Below, one piece after another: positions 21,770 through 29,540 of a stretch of 60,760 nucleotides of DNA. Every line of letters begins with the position of its first letter. Within the stretch, counting starts at the first letter, position 1. A program made the translations under genes and the position numbers. The notes under the pieces are model-generated. The model was not told where the DNA came from and searched no databases. It saw only the letters and a list, made by a program, of their open reading frames with translations. Source of the stretch: an uncultured Archangium sp. (GTDB taxonomy: Bacteria; Myxococcota; Myxococcia; Myxococcales; Myxococcaceae); assembly GCA_903905455.1 (NCBI GenBank), contig CAIVGN010000132.1, positions 1 through 60,760 of the forward strand, in the 5' to 3' direction.

Positions 21770-22167
21770 AGGCACGACAGCCCCGGTGCGCTCGAACGCC
21801 TGGCCGGCGAATGGTGGGGCGACGCACGCTCAGCGCTGGAACGAGGCGAACCTGCCCGGGGTGCGCACCTGGCCGTGCTTTGAACGTCAGGGGGCGTCGT
21901 CGTCCGCAGCGCCCCGGGGAAACCAGCGCGCCTGGGGACCGACGCCGATGAAGAGGTCGTTCACGCCCTCGCCACGATCCAACAACAGCGTCACGGGTCC
22001 GGCCACGCCGTGGTGTTGGCGCACCCGGAGCGCTGCGCGACCATCGAGATCGACGTCAGCCACGAAGGCAGCGGCCCCGCCTCGCCGGCACCGCACCGGA
22101 GCGCTCCTCTCGCCGGTTCGGACCCCCGTGCGTCGCGTCGGCGTGACGGGCCGCGGGGGGGCCCTCC
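21770..22167. other. 398-base gap containing a gene remnant
   Basis: No intact gene is visible. Plus-strand frames are Arg/Pro-rich shadows. The minus strand holds a fragment that looks like the end of an FG-GAP repeat protein (separate entry). GGGGGG at 22155-22160 is the likely ribosome site of the next gene. Confidence 0.5.
21887..22096 (-). pseudogene. possible remnant of an FG-GAP/VCBS repeat protein
   Basis: A 70-codon minus-strand frame contains VADVDLDGRAALRVRQ, then GPVTLLLDRGEG and FIGVGPQARWF. This is the Asp-rich calcium loop and following strand of an FG-GAP repeat. The frame continues upstream without a stop into the 5' end of the next gene but loses protein-like character. It is read as a decayed C-terminus. 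Confidence 0.35.
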
Positions 22168-24399
22168 GTGGCGCTCTCGGCCGGCGTCGTGCATTCTCCG
22201 GTCTTGCGCCGCTTCGTCCTCGCCCTGGGTCTGCTGCTCTCCTCTCGCGCCACGCTGGCCGCCGACGCCTGGGATGACCCGTTTCCCGGGGTGAGGCACC
22301 TCAACCGCACCGGTCCCTCGAATCTCAACATTCACGCCGTCGTCGTCGACCTCTGCGCGCCCGGCGTCTCGGTGCGCACCACGGCGTACGCCGAGAAGGC
22401 CCAGCGCACCTCGGCCTTTGCCTCCTCGGTGGGCGCGCAGCTGGCCATCAACGCCGACTTCTCGTGTCGCCCCGTCGACACCGGCCCGAACAGCCCCTTC
22501 GCTCCCTGCATGGGACACGTGCCCTACGTGACGTACGGCATCGCGATCCACGACGGTCAAGAATGGCCCGGCACGCTGACCCGCGACGCGTTGCTCGCCT
22601 TCGGCGCGGACCGCACGCAGCTGTTCGACAACGCCGAGATGCAGCCCTTCGACGCGAGCTGGATGAAGGAAGGGACAGGAGGGCATTTCTCGTCGGTCAT
22701 CAACGGCGCGGCCAATGGTTACGACTGCCCCATCGACCCGCGCACGGCGGTGGGCCTCTCGGCCGATCGCACCCGGTTGATCATGGTGGTCGCCGATGGT
22801 CGCAGCACCTGGCGCGGCATCACCTGTCGCGAGGCGGCCGACCTGATGGTCGAGCTCGGCGCCGATCGCGGCACCGGCCTCGACAGTGGGGGCTCGTCGA
22901 CGATGTGGTTCGCGGGCCGCGGCGTGCTCAACCACCCCTCTGACGGCACCGAGCGCGTGGTAGGCAACCATCTGGCGATCTACGCCACCGGCACGGGCGC
23001 TCCGGCGCACTGCGTCCAGCCGCCGACCACCGTCAACACCGCGGCCGTTCCCCCCACCGTCGCTGCGTTCGGGAGGCCGGGGCGCTTCAACGGGGTGACC
23101 CCGGTGCGCCTGTTCGACACGCGCACCCCCCCCGGCTCCGCCAACCTCTCCGGCGTGGTGCGTGACGCCGCCGGGCGACTCGCGGCGATGAGCCCGTTCT
23201 CGCTCGACCTCGCAGGGGCCTTTGGCGTGCCCGCCGACGCGACGGCCGTGGCGTTGAACCTCACGGCGGCCGACGAGGGGGCCGGTGGGTACGCGCGCGT
23301 GTGGCCGACGGAGCTCACCCAGCCGAATGTCTCGAACCTCAACTTCACCAACGTGGGGGCCATCACCAACACCGCGCTGGTCGGGCTCGGAACGCCAGGA
23401 CGCCTCTCGGTCAGCGCCAGCGCTCCGACCCACCTCCTCGCGGACTTGCAGGGGTACTTCGCCGCGACGGGCGCGGGCTTCATTCCCGCCACGCCGCGGC
23501 GCCTGCTCGACACGCGCTCGGACCCCGCCGGCAAGCTGCGGTCGCACGTGAGCCGGGTCATCATGCCGGCGAGCTCGCCTTCGCCGCACGCGGTGGCCTT
23601 GAACCTCACCGCGCTCGACGCGACCCTCGCAGGCTTCGTCACGGTGTACCCCTGCGACCAGCCAGTGCCCGCGGCGTCGAGCGTGAACTTCGCCGCGGGC
23701 CAGGTCATCGGCTCGGCGGTCATCGCCCTCATGGGGACGACCGGCATCTGCGCCGACGCGCAGGTTGACGTGCACCTGGTCGTCGATGCCATCGGCACGT
23801 TCGAAGCCGAAGGGGGGCTCGCCTTTCAGCCCGTGACGCCGGTTCGCCTGGTCGACACGCGAGAGGCGAGCAGCGCCTGGGTGGGGCGCACCATGCGCCA
23901 ATCACCGCTCGAGCTGCGGGTCGACCGGCTGCCGGGCCTGCCGGCGCGCACCGGCGCGATCTCGCTCAACGTCACGGTGACGGGCGCGGTCGATGACGGG
24001 TTCGTCACCCTCTACCCGTGCGCCGCGGGTCTCCCGTCGACGTCGAACCTCAACTACCGCGCGGGGCAGACCATCGCCAACGCGGTGCTGGTGGGCCTGG
24101 GTGATGGCCGGTTGTGTCTCAACAGCACGGGCCGCACGCACGTGGTCATCGACCTCACCGGCGTCTTCGTCGGGCCGCCGCCGGTGGTCGATGCGGGTTC
24201 GCCAGACTCGCCGGACGGCGGCCTTCCGATCGGCGGTGGCGCGGGCGGTGGTGGAGGAGCCGCGGGTGGTGGTGCCGCGCCGGACGACCCGGGGGCCATG
24301 ACCGGAGCCGGCGTGGCAGGGTGCGGCTGCGGCACGGGTCCGCTCGAGTTGGCGGGGCTGCTGACGTTGCTGGTTCGTCTGGTCCGCAAGCCCGGCTGA
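22168..24399 (+). CDS. secreted phosphodiester-glycosidase-domain protein with MYXO-CTERM-like tail
   Basis: A 743-residue surface protein. A signal peptide (LRRFVLALGLLLSSRATLA) precedes an N-terminal NAGPA-type phosphodiester glycosidase domain (about 50-275) with the signature LDSGGSSTMWFAGRG and a following NHLAIYATG. Three tandem repeats of about 125 residues follow, each opening with TPVRLFDTR, TPRRLLDTR or TPVRLVDTR and each containing a SNLNF/SVNF plus A-L-V-G-L strand. After a Gly/Ala/Pro linker the protein ends in GCGCGTGP, a hydrophobic helix and VRKPG, a MYXO-CTERM-like sorting tail. GTG 22168 has a G-rich ribosome site; GTG 22189 is also possible. Confidence 0.8.
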   Translation: MALSAGVVHSPVLRRFVLALGLLLSSRATLAADAWDDPFPGVRHLNRTGPSNLNIHAVVVDLCAPGVSVRTTAYAEKAQRTSAFASSVGAQLAINADFSCRPVDTGPNSPFAPCMGHVPYVTYGIAIHDGQEWPGTLTRDALLAFGADRTQLFDNAEMQPFDASWMKEGTGGHFSSVINGAANGYDCPIDPRTAVGLSADRTRLIMVVADGRSTWRGITCREAADLMVELGADRGTGLDSGGSSTMWFAGRGVLNHPSDGTERVVGNHLAIYATGTGAPAHCVQPPTTVNTAAVPPTVAAFGRPGRFNGVTPVRLFDTRTPPGSANLSGVVRDAAGRLAAMSPFSLDLAGAFGVPADATAVALNLTAADEGAGGYARVWPTELTQPNVSNLNFTNVGAITNTALVGLGTPGRLSVSASAPTHLLADLQGYFAATGAGFIPATPRRLLDTRSDPAGKLRSHVSRVIMPASSPSPHAVALNLTALDATLAGFVTVYPCDQPVPAASSVNFAAGQVIGSAVIALMGTTGICADAQVDVHLVVDAIGTFEAEGGLAFQPVTPVRLVDTREASSAWVGRTMRQSPLELRVDRLPGLPARTGAISLNVTVTGAVDDGFVTLYPCAAGLPSTSNLNYRAGQTIANAVLVGLGDGRLCLNSTGRTHVVIDLTGVFVGPPPVVDAGSPDSPDGGLPIGGGAGGGGGAAGGGAAPDDPGAMTGAGVAGCGCGTGPLELAGLLTLLVRLVRKPG

Positions 24400-24431
24400 T
24401 CGTTCCCTCGTTCAGGAGGGAAGGAAGACAC

Positions 24432-24444
24432 CCCTGCGACAGGG
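24432..24444. repeat. 13-base palindrome CCCTGCGACAGGG, copy 1
   Basis: CCCTG and CAGGG arms flank a CGA centre. The reverse complement occurs at 27470-27482, and a related CCCCTGCGGCAGG occurs at 24813-24825. Confidence 0.5.
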
Positions 24445-24807
24445 AGCGTCGTACGGGGCGTGGAGCGTCTGCGCCGCGAAGCCACGCCGACGACAGCCGC
24501 GCCCCCACCAGCACCGCCCGCAGCGGCCTGCGTCTCGCGGCCCGAAGGCCCGAGCCCTGGGCGCGCATGCCCTGGAGGAAGGCCTCGCGAAGCGCTCGGA
24601 CCTCGCCCTCGGTGCGCCCGGTGCGTTGCGCGAAGGTGGGGGCTCACCGCGCCAGAGACGAGGTCGACGAGGTCGTGCTGGTCCCATGACATGCGGGGCC
24701 TGAACCTTCCGAATCGGGAGGACCCCAGACCCCTGAACGTCAATTGGAACGAAGGAACGTTCTCTGGGCGACGAATGGGCGCGGTTCTCTGACGGTTCTC
24801 ACCGGCA

Positions 24808-25040
24808 TTGACCCCCTGCGGCAGGATCTACTCACGAGCTTTGACCCCTCTGCACCCGCGTGACGCGGCTCGTCCACCCGCTCCAGCCATCCCGGCTGGA
24901 ACGGGAGGCTGGCGTGGCGTTTCGCGAGGTGTCGATGTTGGAAGTGAAAGAGGTGCTTCGGCGCTGGCTGGCCGGAGAGGCGAAGAAGGCGATCGCGCGC
25001 GCCGTGGGCGTGAGCAGGAACACGGTCCACTCGACGCATG
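24808..25040 (+). mobile_element. IS21-family insertion sequence remnant (left end and IstA N-terminus)
   Basis: ATG 24935 opens MLEVKEVLRRWLAGEAKKA followed by IARAVGVSRNTV, the N-terminal helix-turn-helix of IS21 IstA transposases. The match stops at about 25030, where the frame runs into unrelated sequence. Two copies of (A/T)TTGACCCC, at 24808-24816 and 24840-24848, lie upstream and could be subterminal repeats of the element's left end. The catalytic DDE region and istB are missing, so the element is dead. Confidence 0.6.
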
Positions 25041-25065
25041 GGCTGCCAGCACCCTTCGACGCCCT

Positions 25066-25941
25066 TCAACCGCGCGCCGCGAGCGCGGCCCACAGCGGAG
25101 CCCCGGCGAGCCCGATCGTCACCGAGCGGGCCTCGAGCTCGGCCGGCACCTCGGGGTGTTGCCGGTTGACGCGCACCAGGGTGGCGCCCGGGTGGTGGAG
25201 CGTGAGCGCCTCGGCCGGCCAGCGGATGACGCTGGGCGTGTTGAAGCCGGTCCCCACGTCGAGGATGACGAGCTTCCCTTCCTGGGCCTGGCTGAACCAC
25301 GCCTCGAAGCGCCCTTTCTGCACGCGGTAGGGCTCGTCGATGAACCAGTCGCCGCCGCGCACGTTGAGCATCACCTTGCCGCCGCAGTTCGGGCAGCGCG
25401 GCACCAGTGCCGGGTCGGTGAGCTCCTCGGTGGCCAGGTCGACCTTCGGCAGCGCGGCCTCCACCCACGGCCCCGCGCTCCACGTCGAGGCGTCACTGCA
25501 CGGCGCGAGGCACTGCAGCCGTGCGTAGCTCCCCTGCCGCGTCCAGATCCGCCGTGCATCGAAGCCGCTGCGCTCGAAGAGGTCGTCGGCGTTGCTGGTG
25601 AGCACGAAGCGGTGCTTGCCCTGGGTGATGGCCCGCAGGTGCTCGTAGGGTTCGCCGTGGGGAGGGGGCGTGAAGCGCAGCTCCTCGAGGTGGCGGGCGA
25701 GGTGCCCCCACTGCACCGCGTCGCTCGGCCACGCGTAGCCGAAGAGCTGGTACCGGCAGCGGGGCCCGCGCGAGGCCAGCACCGGGTAGCGCCGGACGAA
25801 CTGAGCCTCGCTGGTGTAGTCGAAGCCCGCGTCGGCGCTCATGCCCGCGCCGGCGGCGATCAAGACGTGGTCGGCTCCGGCGAGCAGCGCGGCGACGCGC
25901 TCGACGAGCTGGGGGGTGAGCGCACGGGCGAGGTCACGCAC
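25066..25941 (-). CDS. class M sirtuin (SirTM)-like protein ADP-ribosyltransferase
   Basis: A 291-residue SIR2-fold protein. The NAD loop AAGAGMSADAGF is at 29-40. The canonical TQN-D region reads TSNADDLF (Asn117). The catalytic His position of deacetylase sirtuins is Gln136 in RQGSY, as in SirTM enzymes that ADP-ribosylate proteins. A zinc site is formed by Cys144, Cys148, Cys183 and Cys186. GTGFNTPSVIRWP (230-242) is also SirTM-like. GTG 25941 overlaps the macrodomain stop by 8 bases, so the two are coupled. The GcvH-L and LplA2 genes usually linked to SirTM are not nearby. The class assignment comes from motifs only. Confidence 0.82.
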   Translation of the reverse strand: MRDLARALTPQLVERVAALLAGADHVLIAAGAGMSADAGFDYTSEAQFVRRYPVLASRGPRCRYQLFGYAWPSDAVQWGHLARHLEELRFTPPPHGEPYEHLRAITQGKHRFVLTSNADDLFERSGFDARRIWTRQGSYARLQCLAPCSDASTWSAGPWVEAALPKVDLATEELTDPALVPRCPNCGGKVMLNVRGGDWFIDEPYRVQKGRFEAWFSQAQEGKLVILDVGTGFNTPSVIRWPAEALTLHHPGATLVRVNRQHPEVPAELEARSVTIGLAGAPLWAALAARG

Positions 25942-26737
25942 GGAGTGCCTCCAGAAAGGCGCTCGCGGTCGCGGCCTGGTCTGCGGCGGAGAAGGTGACG
26001 AGCACGACGTGCTCGAGGCGGGGGTCCTTCGCGAGGCCCTCCCGGACGGCGGCGATGGCCACCGGCGCGGCCGCGGCCACCGGGTAGCCGAACACGCCGG
26101 TGGAAATGCCACAGAAGGCCACGCTGGTCGCGCCCGCATCGCCCGCGGCCGCGAGGCACGCCGCATAGCAGCGCGACAAGGCCCGCGCGTCCTCGTCGCT
26201 CGGCCGGCGCCCCGCGACGATGGGCCCCACGGTGTGGATCACGAAGCGCGCCGGGAGGAAGGCCCCGCCGGTGGTGGTCGCGGTCGAGGTGGGCTCCGGG
26301 CGCCCGCGCCGCGCCATGATCTCCCCGCACTCTTCCCGCAGCCGCGGGCCGGCGGCCGTGTGGATGGCGTTGTCGACGCAGGGGTGGTCCGGGCGGTAGC
26401 AGCCGGTGAGCCCCGAGTTCGCGGCATTGACGATGGCGTCCACGGCCAGCGTGGTGAGGTCGCCCCGCCAGTGGCTCACCCGCGCGCCCCAGCCCGTCGC
26501 CGCGAGCCGGGGGAGCTCGGACGCGCGCGTGGGGGCGCGCTGCTGCGCCTCGGCCGCCCACACCGCGTCGAGCAGGGGCCAGGCCTCCGCGGGGAGCGTC
26601 GCGGGTGGCGCGACCGTCAGCCGCGCGCGCAGGCGCTGCCGGGAGCGCTGCGGCCCGGCGGCAGGCTCGTCCCCGAGGAGGTGGAGCAGCTCCTCCACCG
26701 CGTCGGCAGCCGGGAGTGTCGCGGTCGGGGCGGGCAT
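25934..26737 (-). CDS. zinc-type macrodomain ADP-ribosyl hydrolase
   Basis: A 267-residue macrodomain protein with the 85-residue helical N-terminal extension typical of SirTM-linked macrodomains. The ADP-ribose loop IVNAANSGL (102-110) runs into GCYRPDHPCVDNAIH (112-126), whose Cys/His cluster is the signature of zinc-dependent macrodomains. HTVGPIV and FCGISTGVFGYP (208-219) complete the ligand site. It is expected to remove the ADP-ribose placed by its sirtuin partner. ATG 26737 follows a TATTCT hexamer by nine bases. It is first in the two-gene unit. Confidence 0.88.
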   Translation of the reverse strand: MPAPTATLPAADAVEELLHLLGDEPAAGPQRSRQRLRARLTVAPPATLPAEAWPLLDAVWAAEAQQRAPTRASELPRLAATGWGARVSHWRGDLTTLAVDAIVNAANSGLTGCYRPDHPCVDNAIHTAAGPRLREECGEIMARRGRPEPTSTATTTGGAFLPARFVIHTVGPIVAGRRPSDEDARALSRCYAACLAAAGDAGATSVAFCGISTGVFGYPVAAAAPVAIAAVREGLAKDPRLEHVVLVTFSAADQAATASAFLEALRA

Positions 26738-26746
26738 TGGCGCGCG

Positions 26747-26776
26747 AGAATAGGGCGGGGGCTTACTCCCTGTCAC
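26747..26776 (-). promoter_or_regulatory. promoter of the macrodomain-sirtuin pair
   Basis: Minus-strand -35 GTGACA (26776-26771), 18-base spacer, -10 TATTCT (26752-26747), then 9 bases to the ATG. It lies in the short gap after the CheX-like gene, so the pair can be transcribed on its own. Confidence 0.55.
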
Positions 26777-26789
26777 CGCTGGCGCAGGG

Positions 26790-27383
26790 TCAGAGGAAGT
26801 CGACCTCGCCACCATCCGAGACGCACACCTTGGAGATGTCCGCGTCCTTCAGGGTGCTGAAGACTTCCCAGTCCGTCACTTCGACCGTGAAGGCGCACAG
26901 GAACTGGTGCTCGCCAAACACGAGCAGCCACTTGTCGCTGTAGCGGCCGAGGTTCCGCAGTTCCTCGGGCCCGAGATCGAAGGACGGCGTCGACTTCGGG
27001 GTGGTCAGCGACATGCCGGTAAACGAGCTGTGGGCCAGCGAGAGCGAGTTCTGGCAGAGCCCAACGGTGAGGTTGCAGAACTCGCCCATGTTGTCGTGCG
27101 CGAGCGCCGGCTTCACTTCCTCCGGAGCCTGGCCCAGCCCCGCGGCGACCAGGGCGCGCGCGACGCGGGAGGTGAACCGCGCAGAGAAGGAGAGCTTGAA
27201 GGCCCGCGAGCTGAGCATGATCGCCGTCACCCAGTGATCGAAGCTCAGGTCATGGTCGGAGGTCAGTTCGCGCTCCTCGAAGGGAATCGACTGCAGGGAC
27301 GCCTGGAGCGCCCTGCGCGCTGCGTCTCGAGCCATCGCCCGGATCGTCGCAACTGCTGCTTCGTGCGTGTCTTGGTGCTTCAT
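26790..27383 (-). CDS. hypothetical protein with CheX/CheC-like signature
   Basis: A 197-residue protein of uncertain family. DNMGEFCNLTVGLCQNSL (97-114) carries the E-x-x-N pair (Glu101, Asn104) found in CheC/CheX chemotaxis phosphatases, and the alternation of helices and strands around it fits that fold. There is no signal peptide or membrane helix. An AAGGGA ribosome site precedes ATG 27383. It has four Cys in the C-terminal half and ordinary base composition. No chemotaxis genes are adjacent. If the resemblance is chance, it is simply a hypothetical protein. Confidence 0.6.
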   Translation of the reverse strand: MKHQDTHEAAVATIRAMARDAARRALQASLQSIPFEERELTSDHDLSFDHWVTAIMLSSRAFKLSFSARFTSRVARALVAAGLGQAPEEVKPALAHDNMGEFCNLTVGLCQNSLSLAHSSFTGMSLTTPKSTPSFDLGPEELRNLGRYSDKWLLVFGEHQFLCAFTVEVTDWEVFSTLKDADISKVCVSDGGEVDFL

Positions 27384-27451
27384 GGGTTCCCTTGATGCGC
27401 GGGGGGCATGAGAGACCGAAGCCTACGTTTGGATCGCACGAAGGACAACAT

Positions 27452-27479
27452 TGCGACAGGCAGCGCCCACCCTGTCGCA
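27452..27479. repeat. perfect inverted repeat with palindrome copy 2
   Basis: TGCGACAGG (27452-27460) and CCTGTCGCA (27471-27479) form a 9-bp perfect stem around 10 bases. The right arm lies within CCCTGTCGCAGGG (27470-27482), the reverse complement of the palindrome at 24432. It sits 37 bases beyond the stop of the GH25 gene but lacks a U run, so a terminator role is doubtful. Confidence 0.55.
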
Positions 27480-27518
27480 GGGCGTTACTACCCCCGAAGC
27501 CCGCTCCGCCGGGGGGGA

Positions 27519-29261
27519 TCAGCGCCCGGCCCTGCGGCGCGAGAGGCCGAGGAAGACGAGGCCAAGCAGCCCGACGGCCCCCGGGGCCGCGCTGCAGCCA
27601 CCCTGTACCGGGGGTGACGCCGCGAGGTCCGGGGTCGGCGTCGGGCTGCCGCCCATGCCCAGGCCCTCGTCTCCGGCCACCGGGGGGCCCCCCGCGTCGG
27701 GCTCGACCCGGGGCATCGCGGTCAGGCCGCCATCATCGGGAGCGCGCTGCGGCTGCCCCGCGTCGACCACGACCGGTCCGCCCGGCGTGGTGCACGCGCC
27801 CCGGTCGCAGCCCGCGTCGAGGGCCTGGCAATCGAGGGCCTGCCGCGCGGTGCAGCCCGTGCCCTCAGCCGAACCTCCGGCGCACTTCTCGTCGACACAG
27901 CCGGCGCCCATGGCCGCGCACTGGGCGGTCTGCTGTCCGGTGCAGCCGGAGCCGGGGCAGTAGCCGCCAGCGCAGGTGCCGTCGACCGAGTGACAGCCGT
28001 AGGCGCCGCAGTCGAGGGCGTTGCGGGCGGTGCTGCCGCTGCCGGCGCAGTGGTCGCCGCCCGAGCAGGCGTGGTCCACGCAGCCGCAGCCCTGGGAGGT
28101 GCAGTCCGTCGTCTCCTTGCCGGTGCAGCCAGAGCCCGGGCCGGCGCCTCCGGCGCACTGGTGATCGACGCAGTGGACCCCGAAGGCCGCGCAGTCGTGC
28201 GTCTCGCGCCAGGTGCAGCCCGAGCCCGCGCAGGCCGCGCCGCCGTTGCACTGGTGGTCCGCGCAGCCGCAGCCCACCTGGCCGCAGTCGAGGGTCTCCT
28301 TCGCGGTGCAGCCGGAGCCGGGGGCCGTACCCCCGTTGCAGGCGCCGTCGACGCAGCCCGCGCCGTACGCGCCGCAGTTGGCGGCGTGCTGCGCGGTGCA
28401 GCCGGTACCGGGACAGAAGACGCCGTTGCAGGCATGGTCCACGCAGCCGCAGCCGAAGTTGCCGCAGCCCGCCACCTCGTGGCCCAGGCAGTTGTCTTCG
28501 GTCAGGCCGTTGGCCAGCACCTGGAGCGCAGCGAGGTCGCCGTTGAAGAGGTTCTTGTCGACGTTGCCGCCGATGCCGGGGATGGCCCCCACCGAGGAGT
28601 ACTGCCAGAAGTTCCAGGCGTTCCACCCCATCGGGGTATTGGGGCAGCTCGAGGGCACGCCCCCGGTGTTGGCCCCGTAGGCGGCGATCCACAGGGCATG
28701 GCTGCCGTAGTTGGCCGACTGCACGCTGGGGTCCCACGCGTACTTGCCGGTGTAGATGAGCGGCTTCTTGCCGGTGCCGGCCTCGACCCGCGAAAGCCAG
28801 GTGTTCATCTGCGACTGGATGAAGGCGGCGCTCTGGCCCTGCATGCTGGCGCCCTCGATGTCGAACATCACCGGCAGGTCGCCCGCGCCCAGCCGGCCCA
28901 CCGCGGCGATGACGATGTCGGCCATGCGGTTCTGATCATTCGAGGCGCGCCAGAATTGATATGCGCCGCGGATCATCCCTGCGTTCTTGATGCCCGCCCA
29001 GTTGGTCTGGAAGGTGGAGTCTCCGCCGTAGCCGTCGCCGATGCGGGTCACCGCGAAGTCCCAGCCGGCGGCGTGCACCGCGTTCCAGTCGACGTGGCCC
29101 TGGTAGACCGAAACGTCCACGCCGCGCACGGTGGGGCCGGCCGCGCAGGACACCACGGCCTGCTCGATCCACGCGAGGTCCGCGGGGCTGCCCGGCTCGG
29201 GAGCGGGCCCGGAGCACCCTGCGAGCCACAACGCCGCGACCAGCCCGATGGAGTTTCGCAT
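27519..29261 (-). CDS. GH25 lysozyme-like lipoprotein with Cys-rich repeats and MYXO-CTERM tail
   Basis: A 580-residue surface protein. A lipobox signal (ALWLAGC, Cys16) is followed by a GH25 muramidase domain (about 45-245) with catalytic acids in RGVDVSVYQG and VMFDIEGAS. Residues about 255-500 hold some eight tandem repeats of 30 residues, each with a C-x-D/V-x2-C core, a G-S-G-C-T step and a closing D-C, for example GCGCVDHACNG then GTGCTAQ. A Pro/Asp linker leads to a MYXO-CTERM-type end: GGCSAAPGA, hydrophobic helix, SRRRAGR. Having both a lipobox and a C-terminal sorting tail is unusual. It may act in cell-wall or prey lysis. Confidence 0.87.
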   Translation of the reverse strand: MRNSIGLVAALWLAGCSGPAPEPGSPADLAWIEQAVVSCAAGPTVRGVDVSVYQGHVDWNAVHAAGWDFAVTRIGDGYGGDSTFQTNWAGIKNAGMIRGAYQFWRASNDQNRMADIVIAAVGRLGAGDLPVMFDIEGASMQGQSAAFIQSQMNTWLSRVEAGTGKKPLIYTGKYAWDPSVQSANYGSHALWIAAYGANTGGVPSSCPNTPMGWNAWNFWQYSSVGAIPGIGGNVDKNLFNGDLAALQVLANGLTEDNCLGHEVAGCGNFGCGCVDHACNGVFCPGTGCTAQHAANCGAYGAGCVDGACNGGTAPGSGCTAKETLDCGQVGCGCADHQCNGGAACAGSGCTWRETHDCAAFGVHCVDHQCAGGAGPGSGCTGKETTDCTSQGCGCVDHACSGGDHCAGSGSTARNALDCGAYGCHSVDGTCAGGYCPGSGCTGQQTAQCAAMGAGCVDEKCAGGSAEGTGCTARQALDCQALDAGCDRGACTTPGGPVVVDAGQPQRAPDDGGLTAMPRVEPDAGGPPVAGDEGLGMGGSPTPTPDLAASPPVQGGCSAAPGAVGLLGLVFLGLSRRRAGR

Positions 29262-29335
29262 GAGGGGTGGTCGGCCGGAGCAGGGGCGAGGTCACCGCCT
29301 GGGACGTAAAGGCCCTTGCTGATCCACCCCGCATT

Positions 29336-29512
29336 TTAGCGATGATTTACCGGCTGCCCAGGCGCGGCCGGCGCTGCGTCGAGCGCCTCTTCGAACCTCG
29401 ACACGAGCACCTTCCTCGAGCAGGGCGACTCTGCGGCGGCGGGTGCGGCGAACGAGGGCGCGTGGAAATCACACACCTCCCCGCGCTGCTCGAGCCGCGG
29501 CAGCTTCCAGGC
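29336..29512 (-). other. orphan protein-like frame without a clear start
   Basis: In the 279-base gap between two minus-strand genes, one minus frame reads QRAVAWKLPRLEQRG, then EVCDFHAPSFAAP, then RKVLVSRFEEALDAA, and stops at TAA 29336-29338. The residue mix is protein-like, but the only start is GTG 29476 with no usable ribosome site. It may be a decayed C-terminus or a small gene. Confidence 0.25.
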
Positions 29513-29540
29513 GACCGCGCGCTGCCCGTGACGTAGCTCC

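Follow-up and report, generated by a model that had tools for sequence, protein, structure and literature searches.

The window analysed here, a stretch of 60,760 nucleotides from an uncultured Archangium sp., harbors two overlapping genes for a class M sirtuin (SirTM) and a zinc macrodomain (Zn-macrodomain), which very likely represent a horizontally acquired minimal operon for the writer and the eraser of protein mono-ADP-ribosylation, predicted to act as a stress switch on an unlinked target. For this reading, the protein families, active-site residues, gene order, absence of GcvH-L and LplA, and gain on an island were obtained in this analysis, and the chemistry was taken from published relatives. 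The two genes and the promoter match in front of them are located as follows:

25066..25941, minus strand: SirTM, class M sirtuin of 291 aa (GTG start at 25941, stop at 25066)
25934..26737, minus strand: Zn-macrodomain of the protein-ADP-ribose hydrolase type, 267 aa (ATG at 26737)
26747..26776, minus strand: sigma-70-like promoter match GTGACA-18-TATTCT (by consensus only), between the CheX-like gene and the ATG of the Zn-macrodomain gene

The Zn-macrodomain gene comes first, and its start codon is backed by similar starts of homologues, while a GGAGG is found a few bases 5' of the sirtuin GTG. The genetic linkage of both genes is given by an overlap of 8 nt (GTGCGTGA), and the overlap and the coordinates in the preliminary description proved exact. 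As for the promoter of its own claimed there for the pair, one sigma-70-like match does lie just 5' of the Zn-macrodomain ATG, compared to 0.1 matches expected in shuffles, and this is suggestive only.

Alignment of the sirtuin revealed the class M triad Asn117, Gln136, and Arg195, corresponding to Asn118, Gln137, and Arg192 of SpySirTM, each of which is required for activity (PMC4518038), and structural zinc cysteines (C-x3-C ... C-x2-C). Thus, Gln136 indeed stands where deacetylases have His, as had been claimed. Comparison with solved structures ranked the two known class M enzymes highest, namely Fusarium Mfs1 (8rsn, E 9e-49) and SpySirTM (5a3a, E 2e-29), whereas SIRT5 reached only 7e-5. 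In the phylogenetic tree, rooted with one His-type subgroup only, the window sirtuin was placed outside the His-type sirtuins (100/100), and 5a3a and 8rsn fell on the SirTM side; a placement among deacylases, named beforehand as the result that would speak against class M, was not obtained. Since its Pfam SIR2 score of 14.1 bits lies below the cut-off of 24 bits, a search of the genome with this model returns three other sirtuins without SirTM.

The macrodomain displays the features by which the Zn-macrodomain family is defined, namely a Cx4HxC zinc loop, NAAN, a Dx3H dyad, and an N-terminal extension (PMC11490716). In detail, these are N104AAN107, C113-x4-H118-x-C120 (C113-YRPD-H118-P-C120, within the GCYRPDHPC reported earlier at residues 112-120), D122-x3-H126, and an extension of about 83 aa, where a three-helix bundle is typical of the family and the low-confidence AlphaFold model suggests helices at residues 10-20, 29-42, and 52-65; the alignment with MorMacro starts at residue 32. 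The best solved match was MorMacro (8rsi, E 7e-46), followed by 8rsm, 5kiv, 8rsl, and 8rsn, and human MacroD1 scored below all five. Solved-structure matches, residues, and trees therefore agree with the assignment of both proteins in the preliminary description. As the AlphaFold models of both proteins, built from five-sequence alignments, were poor (pLDDT 63 and 56), the active-site geometry rests on alignment with solved relatives.

A class M sirtuin was detected in five of 195 Myxococcota genomes, in each case with a Cx4HxC macrodomain directly upstream, while the remaining Myxococcota sirtuins examined retained the His and had no such macrodomain inside a flank of about 1.5 kb. None of the five congeners harbored the pair. 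A wider scan for Q-type sirtuins in 84,980 species genomes revealed the same adjacency in Myxococcota, Clostridium, Chitinophaga, Marinifilaceae, Propionibacteriaceae, Brevibacterium, Actinomadura, Gammaproteobacteria, and many Lachnospiraceae and Oscillospiraceae, including more than 20 lipoate-free pairs in other bacteria, whereas His-type sirtuins were found without an adjacent Cx4HxC macrodomain. In the close relatives, class M residues and Cx4HxC are kept throughout, and sirtuin and macrodomain are adjacent on the same strand. Together with three metagenome-assembled genomes (L042, L043, and L044), the window pair forms a four-member Myxococcota clade (sirtuin 100/100, macrodomain 100/99). 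Its sirtuin branch also contains Foc1Mfs1 (90/88 with Foc1Mfs1) and minimal pairs of Actinomycetota and Bacteroidota, while SpySirTM and the Jeotgalicoccus enzyme are found on the opposite side of a 100/97 split. Pairs of the Corallococcus group constitute a second myxobacterial clade; a single origin of the myxobacterial pairs was neither rejected nor demonstrated (AU p 0.216).

The pair is located on a genomic island, of which the following features are relevant here:

21770..29540, no strand assigned: genomic island of about 7.8 kb, flanked by a histidine kinase gene and a GldG/DUF4340-like gene that are convergent
24459-24683: second gene remnant, with 83% identity to the 5' portion of the gene for a 269-aa protein on contig C133
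24789..25033, plus strand: 5' remnant (about 245 bp) of an IS21-type istA, sharing 84% identity with an istA-like gene of contig C204
26790-27383, minus strand: CheX-like gene (197 aa, below the Pfam cut-off), 52 nt upstream of the Zn-macrodomain gene on the same strand

Besides the pair, the two remnants, and the CheX-like gene, the island contains genes for an NAGPA-type phosphodiester glycosidase and a GH25 lysozyme. The dead IS21 element described nearby was thus found again as a short fragment, for which Pfam yielded weak HTH matches only. In two congeners (G069 and G070), the flanking histidine kinase and GldG/DUF4340-like genes are convergent at a distance of 10 to 120 bp and the island is absent, while in a third (G067) AbiEi/AbiEii occupy the same site (L137:273-1627). 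Most simply, the site is an insertion hotspot between convergent genes, and the island was gained by insertion; given its absence at the same site in three congeners, the pair was probably acquired horizontally on it. The CheX-like gene was considered as an operon partner and rejected: it is absent from all others of 96 family genomes and does not occur beside related pairs, and is therefore treated as an island neighbour.

Such an island location, at a site that carries AbiE defence or toxin-antitoxin genes in one congener, would also suit a toxin-antitoxin or phage-defence module resembling DarT/DarG, in which SirTM would be a toxin that ADP-ribosylates a phage protein or an essential one, with the Zn-macrodomain as its antitoxin; the patchy spread (5/195 Myxococcota genomes, 0/5 congeners) and the operon of two overlapping genes, of which the eraser comes first, point the same way. 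We regard this as improbable, as PADLOC models match neither protein, the sirtuin tree separates SirTM from the antiphage SIR2_2 group (PMC12700824), studied SirTMs target one specific carrier protein (PMC4518038), and writer and eraser are unlinked in the genomes of several relatives, which is unusual for a toxin-antitoxin pair. DarT/DarG likewise combines an ADP-ribose writer and a macrodomain eraser in one operon, but the writer in the window is a sirtuin and not a DarT-type transferase, its macrodomain belongs to the zinc-dependent MacroD type, and DNA is not a known SirTM substrate.

With respect to lipoate metabolism, profile searches found neither GcvH-L nor LplA at the locus or across the genome, which is 97.8% complete, confirming that the pair comes without the usual lipoate carrier genes; the search for GcvH-L and LplA2 suggested in the preliminary description was thereby carried out, and neither is present. 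One GcvH is encoded, in a canonical gcvT-gcvH-coaD-gcvP cluster, and the single LplA-B_cat (LplA/LipB-fold) protein is LipB by sequence. The same GcvH profile yielded two GcvH proteins in a Jeotgalicoccus genome, whose SirTM is adjoined or followed by an lplA-type gene, so that a GcvH-L would have been detected. Since both genes are lacking, the target is another protein, as the earlier suggestion of a different or distant target had it. Canonical lipoylated proteins of the same genome (GcvH or E2 subunits), modified in trans, would be available in view of the encoded GcvH and LipB, but they appear even less probable as targets than a toxin-antitoxin role: SpySirTM and SauSirTM leave canonical lipoyl-GcvH unmodified (PMC4518038), the minimal-operon MorMacro strips Asp/Glu-linked ADP-ribose and cannot demodify GcvH-L (PMC11490716), and none of the three residues by which SpyMacro contacts GcvH-L (R172, K175, and R183) is kept in the window macrodomain (gap, A175, and D183). 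That the sirtuin is an ordinary deacylase adjoining a macrodomain by chance, for instance as a remover of O-acetyl-ADP-ribose, can be rejected as very improbable on the basis of Gln in place of the catalytic His, a replacement with which class M enzymes do not deacylate (PMC4518038), and of the tree placement, along with the low Pfam SIR2 score and the co-inheritance of a zinc macrodomain across phyla; in favour of a deacylase, CobB-type NCBIfam models match weakly over nearly the entire length, with scores far under their cut-offs.

For a reversible ADP-ribosylation pair, the published chemistry would imply that SirTM transfers ADP-ribose from NAD+ onto an acidic (possibly cysteine) residue of at least one host protein; with Gln in place of the catalytic His, a deacylase role is not expected. 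To hydrolyse the ADP-ribose bond, the macrodomain would use a Zn2+ coordinated by Cys and His as Lewis acid, and its Asp/His dyad would position the distal ribose. Co-translation of both genes at a fixed ratio is probable, given that they overlap and that the eraser gene leads. The target, presumably modified at an acidic residue, would not be GcvH-L, which is absent, and its gene probably lies at another genomic location. The most likely role, which we put forward tentatively, is that of a reversible switch responding to redox or electrophile stress. A further possibility, doubtful at present, is that minimal pairs serve as mobile modules for stress or defence at island sites with a non-lipoyl target, and that the myxobacterial clade modifies a novel protein.

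Regarding such a role, minimal pairs repeatedly adjoin one-component regulators, and in two myxobacterial cases these are redox-linked (Rrf2/HypR-like, and AraC with OxyR-AhpCF). Pairs of the Corallococcus group are preceded by an Rrf2 regulator in which a single Cys is conserved; among NCBIfam models, it comes closest to that of the superfamily, followed by HypR, with both scores below cut-off. The closest relative (L042/L034) has an AraC/Cupin_6 regulator in divergent orientation (RclR-like, below cut-off), followed by an OxyR-like gene (below cut-off) and by AhpC and AhpF, both over cut-off. Other minimal pairs adjoin MarR, HxlR, or AraC genes, and in Marinifilaceae an Old Yellow Enzyme (OYE) is encoded a few genes away. 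No redox gene was found beside the pair of the window, and L043 and L044 offered no clear case; a fixed third partner in this clade was rejected, as the neighbours of the window pair, L042, L043, and L044 have no common gene. Altogether, the neighbourhoods fit the role in oxidative stress that has been published for Mfs1 and the extended operons; this signal stems from relatives and, being uncorrected for background, could be due to chance.

Independent SirTM/Zn-macrodomain operons without lipoate genes were described in 2015 and biochemically tested in 2024 (PMC4518038, PMC11490716), with lone minimal pairs in Methanobrevibacter oralis, Enterococcus faecalis, and Treponema pedis. The novelty claimed in the preliminary description for a minimal SirTM module was therefore overstated, all the more as the lipoate-free pairs now found elsewhere include further Myxococcota. 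Our additions are modest, namely the Myxococcota as host group, which are not mentioned in the searched main text of both papers, the island, and the regulator neighbourhoods. Like the three published minimal pairs, among which MorMacro provides the best solved match, the window pair consists of two genes with the same catalytic and zinc motifs and no adjoining GcvH-L or LplA2; it differs in its Myxococcota-specific sequence clade, its island location, and its high-GC host. The fungal Mfs1 fusions (Foc1Mfs1, 8rsn) represent the closest solved sirtuin and fall on the same side of the SirTM tree, but are one fused chain instead of two overlapping genes. With the extended operon of Staphylococcaceae and Lactobacillales (GcvH-L, Zn-macrodomain, SirTM, LplA2, OYE, and LLM), the window has the enzyme classes and catalytic residues in common, while GcvH-L, LplA2, OYE, and LLM are missing, the sirtuins are separated by the 100/97 split, and the contact residues are not retained. 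For the question of the physiological target of fungal Mfs1 enzymes and lipoate-free pairs (PMC11490716), the myxobacterial clade with clear empty sites in congeners provides a clean setting, and the recurring regulators hint at which stresses may matter.

Some further observations were made among the relatives. A two-domain SnoaL-like protein is encoded 5' of the Zn-macrodomain gene in both Corallococcus (L035:4221-5090) and Chitinophaga (L046:4519-5289) and may be a partner common across phyla. In a clade of Clostridia/Ruminococcaceae SirTMs (L058-L062, L064, L101, and L103), no macrodomain is adjacent, but a Zn-macrodomain is encoded elsewhere in the genome, its Cx4HxC being confirmed in several; the notion of an orphan SirTM clade in Ruminococcaceae was consequently dropped. 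In L059, an HxlR gene (Pfam) is divergent from SirTM, and L064 looks alike. At the position expected to hold the essential Arg192 of SpySirTM, SirTMs of Propionibacteriaceae and Brevibacterium (L049-L052 and L057) carry Tyr or Asn. In Streptomyces hyaluromycini, SirTM and Zn-macrodomain genes lie in one locus (L053) with an AraC gene and one for an aldehyde dehydrogenase between them, and a second, disrupted-looking sirtuin copy is located on a separate contig (L080).
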